NCBI GenBank assembly: GCA_017958225.1
Contig: JAGDDD010000032.1
Coordinates: 1-50,713, forward strand
Source: Alphaproteobacteria bacterium
Lineage (GTDB): Bacteria; Pseudomonadota; Alphaproteobacteria; CAAHEQ01; UBA3637
DNA: 50,713 nt
Direction of reading: 5' to 3'
In this document: piece by piece, positions 20,090 through 25,303 of the stretch
Position numbering within the stretch: the stretch's first letter is position 1
Layout: each line of letters opens with the position of its first letter
Notes under the pieces: model-generated
The model's database searches: none
The model's input: only the letters and a program-made list of their open reading frames with translations
Told to the model about the DNA's origin: nothing
Made by a program: the position numbers and the translations under genes

Positions 20090-20111
20090 TTTTTCACAGA
20101 GATTTTTTCAA

Positions 20112-20144
20112 AGAGCCCGGCCTTAACTCCGGGCTCTTTTTTTT
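20112..20144 (+). terminator. Intrinsic terminator of the DUF378-like gene
   Basis: 9-bp stem AGAGCCCGG / CCGGGCTCT, 8-nt loop, then eight or more Ts. Confidence 0.9.
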
Positions 20145-20161: not shown

Positions 20162-20189
20162 TTGCATTATTTTTGATTTAGATTACAAT
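20162..20189 (+). promoter_or_regulatory. Promoter of the structured leader RNA
   Basis: TTGCAT (20162-20167), 16 bp, TACAAT (20184-20189). Predicted start near 20196, right at the first hairpin. Confidence 0.55.
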
Positions 20190-20195
20190 CATACT

Positions 20196-20473
20196 TGCGT
20201 ATGTGGGAAACCGGATACGTTGAGTGCCTGTAAGGGTGCAAGAGAGCTGTCACAAGCTCAATTTCTCGGGGTGGGTATCAAACACCCTACCCAAAAAGGT
20301 GTGTTTTCTTTCTGAACGAGAATAACTACCTTTTCCTATGTCCCAGATCTTATGGTCGGGGAGCCCGTAGCGTATGTTCAGAGGTTATGCAAATAGCCTT
20401 AAAGGCTACGGGAATCATTTCGAGAAATTTGATTGTGAACTCTCCGACCACCTGTCTAGCGCAGGTGGTTTTG
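20196..20473 (+). ncRNA. Structured leader RNA or riboswitch-like element upstream of the TRL-like gene
   Basis: This ~280-nt stretch has no credible ORF. Pairings found by eye: a 5' hairpin with a GAAA loop (20198-20219); GAGCT/AGCTC (20244-20259); GGGTG/CACCC (20269-20287); helix A, 20260-20268 with 20421-20429 (9 bp); helix B, 20354-20357 plus 20360-20363 with 20442-20449; helix C, 20364-20371 with 20405-20412 (8 bp), stacked on B. A and B interleave, so they form a pseudoknot or exclude each other. B shares three bases with the terminator stem at 20447. The Shine-Dalgarno sequence of the next gene lies only ~15 nt past the terminator, leaving no room for another promoter. It matches no riboswitch, tmRNA, 6S, SRP or RNase P signature I know. 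Confidence 0.6.
20447..20473 (+). terminator. Terminator or attenuator at the end of the leader RNA
   Basis: 8-bp stem ACCACCTG / CAGGTGGT with a 7-nt loop and a short TTTTG tail. The weak T-run and the gene 28 bp beyond fit conditional termination. Confidence 0.65.
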
Positions 20474-20501
20474 TTTATGTATTTTAAGAAAGGACAATCA
20501 A

Positions 20502-20924
20502 ATGAAAAAAGTATTACTTGCAACCTTGGCTACGTTGGCCTTATCTGCTTGTGTCGCAACACATCAAGGTGTCCCGACAGGCACATTAACATTAGGTGGT
20601 GTGGAAAGCAACAGAACGGCCAATATTCAGATTGGCCCGAAGGTGTCCGGCAATGCCAAAGGCACCGTTGTTTTGGGCTTTATTAAATTGGGTGATGATA
20701 CCAAATATGCTGATGGCGTGAATTTTGGCATGGGCGGTTTGGTTTCTCCGCTCGATCCGACGGCCGATTTGAAAGCAGCTGCCGCGTATAAGGCTGTTAA
20801 ATCAGGCAATGGTGACGTGTTGTATGCTCCCATTTATGAAGTTGAAGAAGAAAATTACGTCTTGTGGAAGAAATACAACGTTAATGTCAATGCTTACTCC
20901 GGTAAGATTACAGGCATTAAATAA
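20502..20924 (+). CDS. TRL-like family lipoprotein
   Basis: 140 residues. MKKVLLATLATLALSACVAT is a lipoprotein signal (Cys17). The body matches the TRL-like family: GTLTLGG, a glycine-rich TVVLGFIKLGDD, ADLKAAAAYKAVKSGNGDVLYAPIYEVEEENYVLW and a final SGKITGIK. The family is named after a tRNA-associated locus; a tRNA-Gln lies 1 kb away here. Function unknown. AAAGGA precedes the ATG. Expression probably depends on read-through of the leader terminator. Confidence 0.8.
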   Translation: MKKVLLATLATLALSACVATHQGVPTGTLTLGGVESNRTANIQIGPKVSGNAKGTVVLGFIKLGDDTKYADGVNFGMGGLVSPLDPTADLKAAAAYKAVKSGNGDVLYAPIYEVEEENYVLWKKYNVNVNAYSGKITGIK

Positions 20925-21118: not shown

Positions 21119-21694
21119 TTATTTATCTCTTTCATCCATTCGTGGATCTTTTGTAAAAGTATTGCCTACTTCCTCTTTGATTGCTGCATACTCAGCGTAT
21201 TGTCGAGCAAGCGAGCAAACGGCGGCAAAACTAGCGCCACTGTGCCCTTCATCCAATCCTGGTACCATTTTATATTGTGTTGTAACAGAGGCGTGTATAA
21301 AACTGTCAATGTTTCCGAGCGATTTGCATTTTTCAAAGACTCTTTGGGCATCCGCCACAATGCGTTGGTCCAACTTTCCGCCATCATCGTAGTTTTCATA
21401 TCCTTTAAAGTATTCTAAAAAAGTAAAAGGCTCATGTATAGCCTTATATGTTGAGTATCGTCGAGCAAGAGAACAAACGGCAGCAAAACTGGCGCCACTG
21501 TGTCCTTCATCCAATCCTGGTACCATTGTATTTTGTGTTTTAACAGAGGCGTGTATAAAACTGTCAATGGCTTTAGGAGATTTTAATGTTTCGAAGACTT
21601 TTTGGGCATCCGCCACAATGCGTTGGTCCAACTTTCCGCCATCATCGTAGTTCTTATATCCTTTAAAGTAATCTGAAAAAGATTTTATTTGCAT
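21119..21694 (-). CDS. Protein with internal tandem duplication, unknown
   Basis: 191 residues in two near-identical units with an 86-residue period (about 7-86 and 93-172). Each reads YFKGYxNYDDGGKLDQRIVA, then FIHASVxTQ, MVPGLDEGHSGASFAAVCSL and AR(R/Q)Y. The DNA is also nearly identical between units (258-bp period; compare 21351 and 21609), so the duplication is recent. No signal peptide and no known family. GGAG precedes the ATG. It lies between copies of the tRNA-Gln 3' end and looks more AT-rich than its neighbours, suggesting acquisition. Confidence 0.65.
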   Translation of the reverse strand: MQIKSFSDYFKGYKNYDDGGKLDQRIVADAQKVFETLKSPKAIDSFIHASVKTQNTMVPGLDEGHSGASFAAVCSLARRYSTYKAIHEPFTFLEYFKGYENYDDGGKLDQRIVADAQRVFEKCKSLGNIDSFIHASVTTQYKMVPGLDEGHSGASFAAVCSLARQYAEYAAIKEEVGNTFTKDPRMDERDK

Positions 21695-21778
21695 ATGAAA
21701 CTCCTTTATTGTTGTTACCAATATGAAGTGTAGCACATAGTTATATTGATGTCAAGAAACTATCAGTTTTTCTCCTTT

Positions 21779-23973: not shown

Positions 23974-24986
23974 CGCAACTGACCTATGAACAACTGACGG
24001 GCGAGCAAAAAACAGCCATTTTCCTGTTGGCGTTGGGCGAAGAGGGCATCAAAAGCCTGTTTGAAAAAATGTCGGATGTGGAAGTGCGGCGCATTTCCAT
24101 GACGATGGCGCGCCTGGGCCATGTGAATGCGGCTTTGGTCAAGCGCGTGTTGCAAGACTTTGTGCAACAGACGGAAGCGCCGACGTTGTCTTTTGACCCG
24201 ATGAAGACGGAACAGATGTTGCAGAGAACTTTGCCGGTGGATAGAAGCGAGACCATCTTGGATCGTATCAAAGACACCATGGGGTGCGATACCTGGGACA
24301 AGTTGGGGGCACTCAATCCGCGTGTTGTGGCCGACTACCTGAAAAAAGAATATCCGCAAACGGTGGCAGTGGTGTTGGCGCACATGCCGGCATCGGCCGG
24401 GGCTAAGGTATTAGACTTGTTGCCGGAATCGTTTGCGTTGGATGTGATGTTGCGCCTGTTACGTTTGGATGATGTGCAAAAAGACGCTTTGTCCGATATC
24501 GAAAAAACCTTAAAAACCGATTTGCTGGACAAGGCTGAGGCGCCTCAATTGTTGCGGCCTGCTGACAAGTTGGCTGATATCTTCAACCAATGGGACGGGG
24601 AGACGGCGGCACAGATGATGCAGGCGTTGTTGGAGCGGCAAAAAGAGGCGGCAGAGCAAGTGTTGTCGCGCTTGTTCCAATTTGCCGATTTTGCGCAAAT
24701 GGATCCGCAAAGTGTGCGTTGCGTTTTGCAGTCGGCAACGGAAAATACAGTCGTTTTGGCGTTGTATTCTGCGCCTGAGGCTGTCAGAAACGCCCTGTTG
24801 CAGCCTATGTCGGCCGGTGTCCAAAAACGTGTGCTGGCGGCGGTCCAGGCGTTACAAGATGTGAAGGAAAATGCCGTGGTGCAAGCGCAAACGGAATTGG
24901 TGGCCTTGGCCAAGCAATTGGCTCAAGAGGGGCACATTTCGTTGCCTTTGCGCTCTCAAGATAATACAGGAAAGGAAATATCATGA
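23970..24986 (+). CDS. fliG: FliG-like rotor protein lacking torque residues
   Basis: 338 residues, normal FliG length. The N-terminal FliF-binding domain (EQKTAIFLLALGEEGIKSLF), middle domain with KEYPQTVAVVLAHMPASAGAKVL and C-terminal domain are all present. Aligned without gaps to E. coli FliG recalled from memory, the torque residues are replaced: Lys264 by Tyr266, Arg281 by Gly283, Asp288 and Asp289 by Ala290 and Ala291; Arg297 becomes Lys299. Interaction with a stator therefore looks lost while assembly regions remain. Overlaps fliN by ATGA. Confidence 0.9.
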   Translation: MTQLTYEQLTGEQKTAIFLLALGEEGIKSLFEKMSDVEVRRISMTMARLGHVNAALVKRVLQDFVQQTEAPTLSFDPMKTEQMLQRTLPVDRSETILDRIKDTMGCDTWDKLGALNPRVVADYLKKEYPQTVAVVLAHMPASAGAKVLDLLPESFALDVMLRLLRLDDVQKDALSDIEKTLKTDLLDKAEAPQLLRPADKLADIFNQWDGETAAQMMQALLERQKEAAEQVLSRLFQFADFAQMDPQSVRCVLQSATENTVVLALYSAPEAVRNALLQPMSAGVQKRVLAAVQALQDVKENAVVQAQTELVALAKQLAQEGHISLPLRSQDNTGKEIS

Positions 24987-25303
24987 ACGAACAACAAAAA
25001 GAAGCCTTTTTAAGATTGGCAGAACGGGCCTTAAATGCGGCGTCGGCCAGCAAGGAAAAACCGGATAAAGCTTCTCTGGCACCCTTGTATGATGTGCCGG
25101 TGCAAATTACCGCTGTTTTGGGCAGAACGACGTTGCCGATTTGTGATGTGTTAAAAATGGGTGTCGGCTCTGTGGTGGCGTTGGATAAGCCTGTGGGCGA
25201 AGATGTCGATATCTATGTGAATAATCGCTTGATTGCGCGCGGAGAATTGGTGGAAAAGGACGGTCATTTCGGTGTGACGTTGACGGAGATTCTCAAAGGG
25301 TAA
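24983..25303 (+). CDS. fliN: FliN-like C-ring protein
   Basis: 106 residues. The C-terminal SpoA domain is well kept: LYDVPVQITAVLGRTTLPICDVLKMGVGSVVALDKPVGEDVDIYVNNRLIARGELVEKDGHFGVTLTEIL. The short N-terminus is helical. FliN forms the lower C-ring with FliM; no FliM is encoded here. Gene order F-G-N matches Caulobacter fliF-fliG-fliH-fliN minus fliH. Confidence 0.92.
   Translation: MNEQQKEAFLRLAERALNAASASKEKPDKASLAPLYDVPVQITAVLGRTTLPICDVLKMGVGSVVALDKPVGEDVDIYVNNRLIARGELVEKDGHFGVTLTEILKG

Follow-up and report, generated by a model that had tools for sequence, protein, structure and literature searches.

A pseudoknotted leader RNA ahead of a putative lipoprotein gene: a probable cis-acting switch related to sRNA-Xcc1

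The RNA preceding a putative lipoprotein gene in the analysed stretch of alphaproteobacterial DNA (contig JAGDDD010000032.1; 50,713 nucleotides (nt), hereafter the window) probably acts in cis, as a switch within the 5' leader of the mRNA for this lipoprotein, and belongs to a large superfamily in which sRNA-Xcc1 (Rfam RF02221) is also found. This reading is based on comparison of the window sequence with relatives from genomes, plasmids, and viral contigs.

The leader RNA and its pseudoknotted fold

Promoter, RNA, terminator, Shine-Dalgarno (SD) sequence, and ATG follow one another with tight spacing. The elements of the locus and of the predicted fold are:

20110 to 20139, + strand: terminator of the upstream DUF378 gene, shielding the leader RNA from upstream transcription
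20162 to 20189, + strand: promoter of the leader RNA (-35 TTGCAT 20162-20167, -10 TACAAT 20184-20189, spacing 16)
20196 to 20476, + strand: leader RNA of about 280 nt, its 5' end inferred from the promoter and its 3' end from the terminator
20198 to 20219, + strand: P1, the hairpin at the 5' end, with a GAAA loop in the window copy and a stem that differs among copies
20224 to 20240, + strand: P2 hairpin, missing from many copies outside the family
20244 to 20259, + strand: P3 hairpin (GAGC/GCTC), 95.5% paired, its 8-nt loop giving the 5' strand of helix C
20250 to 20255, + strand: 5' strand of helix C (UCACAA), partner of 20433-20438
20260 to 20268, + strand: 5' strand of helix A, partner of 20421-20429 in the P8 loop
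20269 to 20341, + strand: variable domain with one or more hairpins
20342 to 20361, + strand: P5 hairpin (20342-20349 with 20354-20361, a strand also used by helix B)
20354 to 20363, + strand: 5' strand of helix B, GGUCGGGGAG, the candidate switching strand
20364 to 20412, + strand: P6 and P7 with a conserved internal loop (P6 20364-20371/20405-20412; P7 20382-20388/20393-20399)
20413 to 20434, + strand: P8 (stem 20413-20417/20430-20434), its loop being the 3' strand of helix A, 20421-20429
20433 to 20438, + strand: 3' strand of helix C (UUGUGA), in the linker just 5' of the B 3' strand and overlapping the end of P8 by 2 nt
20440 to 20449, + strand: 3' strand of helix B, CUCUCCGACC, whose last 3 nt double as the base of the terminator stem
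20447 to 20476, + strand: terminator (stem 20447-20454/20462-20469, U-tract 20470-20476), about 14 nt ahead of the SD
20490 to 20494, + strand: SD sequence AAGGA
20502 to 20924, + strand: downstream gene (ATG at 20502) encoding a 140-aa putative lipoprotein with an LSAC box

Folding of 20196-20480 yields -112.7 kcal/mol compared to -79.1 ± 4.8 kcal/mol for shuffled sequences (z -7.0), which, together with the covariation, bears out the original prediction of a structured RNA of about 280 nt at this place. The promoter assigned to the RNA likewise finds support, since most homologues have it at a fixed spacing from P1; in the majority of family copies the -35/-10 pair is spaced 16-18 nt and ends 6-8 nt ahead of P1. 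A separate promoter for the downstream gene was looked for on the + strand from the start of the leader RNA to the open reading frame (ORF), and no promoter-like site was found; the mere 25 nt between the U-tract and the ATG were counted as no room for a further promoter.

In a MAFFT alignment that was not fitted to the structure, 86.9% of the cells across the whole structure are paired, compared to 76.2% for shuffled and at most 49% for slid sequences, with two-sided changes at 40 pairs and at every pair of helix A. P1 was poorly aligned by this method (45% of cells paired). For 88 further copies, mostly independent in lying outside the seed and aligned by fitting to the model, 94.5% of cells are paired compared to 73.8%, with two-sided changes at 30 of 34 pairs. 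Helix C, a third long-range helix newly found here, has at least 6 Watson-Crick base pairs (bp) in 90% of the 172 copies with a recognisable P3 but in only 5.7% of partner-swapped combinations, and is built from 56 different sequence pairs. The mean duplex energy of helix A is -9.3 with its own partner and -6.0 with swapped ones. Finally, G-U cells outnumber A-C cells 718 to 64 (11 to 1), which argues that selection acts on the RNA sense strand.

Helix A lies exactly where it had been placed (20260-20268/20421-20429), and both it and helix B covary in homologous leaders, the check that had been suggested. Helix B is real as well, yet its 3' arm had been drawn 2 nt short (20442-20449), the full helix comprising 10 bp (20354-20363/20440-20449). 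While the interleaving of A and B was thus borne out, the two are not alternatives to each other: the alternative to B is P5, and A, B, and helix C are predicted parts of one pseudoknotted fold. The sequence supports such a fold at the RNA level: enclosed by helix B, the P8 region is the docking site for helix C, formed by the P3 loop, and for helix A. A further tertiary contact, docking of a P1 GNRA tetraloop into the P6/P7 loop, was rejected; a crude scan of 51 family copies found GNRA as the loop of the longest 5' hairpin in just 16.

Strand sharing by P5, helix B, and the terminator

The riboswitch- or attenuator-like geometry that had been proposed is seen in the pairing pattern, in which the strands of P5, B, and the terminator form an attenuator arrangement. 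The strand GGUCGGGGAG pairs either with an upstream strand, giving P5, or with CUCUCCGACC, giving B, and P5 and B are considered mutually exclusive because both pair with this same strand and P5 covaries with B. A P5 score of at least 6 is reached in 90% of copies, compared to 34% with shuffled upstream sequence. Where the GGUCGGGGAG strand varies, the partners in P5 and B both tend to follow. For example, across 45 variant copies P5 scores 8.0 with its own B 5' strand and 6.5 with those of other variants, though it fits the consensus strand nearly equally well (7.5). The window's genome contains two more leaders with different yet three-way matching strands, one preceding an outer-membrane protein gene (L345) and one a glycosyltransferase-like gene (L346).

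As predicted, the terminator lies close ahead of the SD and its base overlaps B, by the last 3 nt of B in the window. Overall, the terminator stem takes in the last 3-4 nt of B, a short overlap, in 162 of 229 copies (71%) compared to about 57 with permuted bases, and in 48 of 51 copies of the family set alone. The full stem of the window terminator has an energy of -13.7 kcal/mol, and -6.1 kcal/mol without the bases shared with B. The minimum-energy fold retains P5 and the full terminator (-112.7 compared to -100.6 kcal/mol with B forced), in a calculation where pseudoknots are not scorable. The overlap is often missing from plasmid and viral copies of high GC content; without such a terminator, a copy needs another output. 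Sequestration of the SD by the 3' strand of B, considered as a general second mode, was not significant (5.1 vs 4.9 nt) and was dropped, while several striking cases of 7-8 nt were seen.

From this sharing of strands, we infer that P5 with the terminator represents an OFF state and the A-C-B fold an ON state. P5 would form first during transcription, and if it persisted, the full 8-bp terminator adjoining the U-tract would form, stopping transcription before the gene and releasing a short RNA that may also act in trans. If instead a ligand, a protein, or another condition stabilised the A-C-B fold, B would displace P5 and tie up the final bases of CUCUCCGACC, so that the stem would be shorter and set apart from the U-tract, permitting read-through into the gene. 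The conserved aptamer-like fold has an expression platform on a strand in common with it, as in riboswitches. Like terminator-type riboswitches and attenuators, the leader has an anti-antiterminator (P5), an antiterminator-like helix (B), and a terminator in series before the SD; unlike them, its regulon is not metabolically coherent and its terminator overlap comprises only 3-4 nt.

Relatives, downstream genes, and possible partners

Around 235 relatives were gathered from genomes, plasmids, and viral contigs. A blastn search with the leader RNA turned up relatives in 30 of 96 related genomes, and several in one genome were common; one 23-bp match (G000:C39) was dropped, as there was no core there. 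A core covariance model of 149 positions (R1) matches 38 of the 43 genomes of the family, a count that includes weak matches, some probably due to chance; across the class it matches 44 of the 385 sampled genomes, or about a tenth of the sampled alphaproteobacterial species. Weak R1 matches of about 28-36 bits, found in AT-rich genomes (G019 and G042, for example), were left out of the members. A DNA pattern for helix B led to copies in Rhizobium, Agrobacterium, Shinella, Brucella, Microvirga, Novosphingobium, Rickettsia, Acidobacteriaceae, and others, as well as in 28 viral contigs, and R1 confirmed nearly all of them. No feature was annotated under the RNA in the plasmid records among the matches listed, and the main text of a human microbiome RNA survey (PMC8040213) contains nothing on this RNA.

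Individual copies show further features. One on plasmid p42d of Rhizobium etli, for instance, stands upstream of an HTH gene. Two cores stand in tandem, the second directly 3' of the first, in G343:C6:523834-524090 (L101 and L172). An extra hairpin, UUGCGGGGGCGYACCGCA, is conserved 3' of B in plasmid, Rhizobiales, and Acidobacteria copies (e.g., L321 near 3200; L188, L193, L207, and other high-GC copies). The 1.1-Mb genome G026 carries about 20 copies (among them L014, L037, L038, L115, L118, and L119), several preceding prepilin-like genes whose N-termini have repeat-derived insertions (NVILSETKNL-like, CHSC..ENPAG).

The frequency of copies on conjugative plasmids (187 of the 236 plasmid records found by blastn) and the presence of sRNA-Xcc1 in integron cassettes (PMC12444791) could point to a DNA-level element, namely a cassette recombination site or single-stranded hairpin. 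Such an element is highly improbable, as it would explain neither the 11-to-1 excess of G-U over A-C nor a promoter fixed at the RNA start and a strand that is nearly always that of the gene behind. In addition, an informal look at the window for an integron or attC site revealed no array, only a single gene.

Most copies run directly into an ORF. Among the 138 whole-genome copies, the majority have the start codon some 10-31 nt past the end of the core-model match, the distance being more variable in plasmid and viral copies of high GC content. The 193 downstream proteins form 109 blastp clusters. A signal-peptide-like start is found in 48% of the proteins compared to 16% of other ORFs at the same loci (p 3e-17), and prepilin-like starts were picked out by their motif. 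Among the families matched in Pfam and NCBIfam are outer-membrane barrels, glycosyltransferases, HTH regulators, DNA methyltransferases, GmrSD, SNase, and DUF4268. In the window, the gene encodes a putative lipoprotein (19.5 bits for LPAM_1, cut-off 20), as had been proposed, but the description as TRL-like failed, with no match to Pfam TRL (PF13146) even at E<=10; the gene behind one relative (L015) does match this family. Nor is the RNA tied to one lipoprotein; it heads more than 100 unrelated gene families. Further along the window, 21122-21736 on the - strand encodes a 205-aa protein of two similar tandem halves with weak DUF2600 similarity.

Riboswitches for c-di-GMP also head diverse surface genes. 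The gene set behind the leader resembles such a surface regulon, and GGDEF domains occur in 41 of the 43 family genomes. Yet the RNA also occurs in four genomes that are at least 98% complete but have no GGDEF domain, three of them with 6-7 model matches, and no Rfam riboswitch was matched. c-di-GMP is hence unlikely as the signal, and a riboswitch for any known ligand is very hard to credit.

TraM is the TraR antiactivator and acts in quorum sensing of Ti-plasmid transfer. On pTiC58, a family copy lies between traH and traM, just upstream of traM at about 149940-150160, and the leader likewise stands between these two genes on other Agrobacterium plasmids:

24938 to 25175 (record about 149938-150175): traM leader copy (L329), A. 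fabrum C58 pTiC58

As cited in PMC7912708 and PMC7843513, QfsR is a Ti-plasmid sRNA tied to conjugation and quorum sensing (Diel 2019). The traM leader is also a Ti-plasmid RNA and, on what these citing papers say of QfsR, may or may not be identical to it. TraM protein drops in an Agrobacterium hfq mutant (PMC4201532), which would suit a leader whose fold is recognised by a host protein, RNA polymerase, or the ribosome, with antitermination and no small molecule involved. The presence of the RNA in many hosts, plasmids, and viral contigs, ahead of diverse genes, also fits such a reading, as the partner must therefore be general; however, the conserved joining regions suit a ligand pocket equally well, and this explanation is judged unlikely.

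Kinship with sRNA-Xcc1 and wider meaning

The window copy, scanned against Rfam to an E-value of 10, matched no family, and distant copies gave no match at gathering thresholds. The original prediction that the RNA belongs to no known class thus stands for the window copy, but not for the family, as intermediates link it to RF02221. Three plasmid copies match RF02221 below threshold over the same core, at 32-35 bits (best 35.1, cut-off 53), with an E-value of 9.6e-5 for 271 nt in one plasmid copy. Over the 385 genomes, RF02221 was found in 57, in 7 above the cut-off, and many sites coincide with those of R1 (e.g., G229:C1, G239:C1, G061:C58, G277:C2, G315:C1, and G399:C1); R1 also finds several RF02221 copies. 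In RF02221 copies the 5' domain is present, an ORF is close behind in most, and helix C occurs in 38 of 44 RF02221-scoring copies from alphaproteobacteria and other Pseudomonadota (24 of 29 outside the alphaproteobacterial set). Taken together, the sub-threshold matches, common loci, and 5' domain place the leader family as a divergent clade of the sRNA-Xcc1 superfamily.

The window RNA itself has the core fold, with helix B closing over an arm and a short hairpin, and the superfamily trait of a P3 loop complementary to the linker before the B 3' strand. The order of the core, B5-P6/P7-P8-B3, equals that of the Rfam consensus. The window RNA was filed as a sister clade and not as a member because it remains below the RF02221 gathering cut-off (53 bits) and lacks the conserved loop AAUACAAUACC / GGGGAAUAA, having GUAUGUUCAG / UUAAAG instead, with intermediates in between; the sRNA-Xcc1 loop motif AAUACAA corresponds to GUAUGUUCAG in the window family. 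RF02221 differs further in describing an 87-nt core only, without the 5' domain, helices A and C, P5, and the link to the terminator. P5 was not significant in RF02221-positive copies, and the P5/terminator platform is therefore, as far as sequence comparison goes, a clade-specific part of the superfamily. In some RF02221-type copies (L330, L333, L335, and L339), another P3-like hairpin lies 3' of the core, close to the SD, and its loop could also pair with the helix C linker as a possible alternative switch. In other Pseudomonadota, RF02221-type leaders precede genes judged from their sequence to encode phage antirepressor or Rha-like regulators (L348, L353, L356, and L373).

sRNA-Xcc1 was published as a trans-acting RNA of 88 nt, determined by RACE and Northern blotting (PMC2996969; Chen 2011, as cited in PMC12444791), and is multicopy in Aeromonas (PMC8780938) and in Xylella, where loci related to it carry sRNA annotations or are handled as sRNAs (PMC12189769). 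As the leader RNA has its own promoter and terminator, it could similarly act mainly in trans, with the downstream gene expressed only by leaky read-through. This is considered rather unlikely given the strict placement before an SD and ATG over 109 unrelated protein clusters, the strand sharing of P5, B, and the terminator, and the lack of a second promoter found for the gene. Moreover, sRNA-Xcc1 in the integron cassettes of Xanthomonas is likewise upstream of a gene, symE (PMC12444791), and cis and trans roles are not exclusive, so that the favoured cis-acting switch would leave room for both.

The analysis extends an 87-nt Rfam entry of little known function to an RNA of 200-280 nt in which two pseudoknot pairings covary and which may serve as a genetic switch. 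The family is large and mostly unrecognised, spreads wider than a single-locus view suggests, and heads genes including traM, HTH regulators, DNA methyltransferases, pilins, outer-membrane proteins, and glycosyltransferases. Tentatively, it could be speculated that these RNAs form a single riboswitch-like class, spread by plasmids, phages, and integrons over Pseudomonadota and beyond as a portable module that controls surface genes and genes gained by horizontal transfer and answers to one common signal; sRNA-Xcc1 would be a truncated view of this class. If the switch holds true, many mobile and surface genes may be under the control of a single signal.
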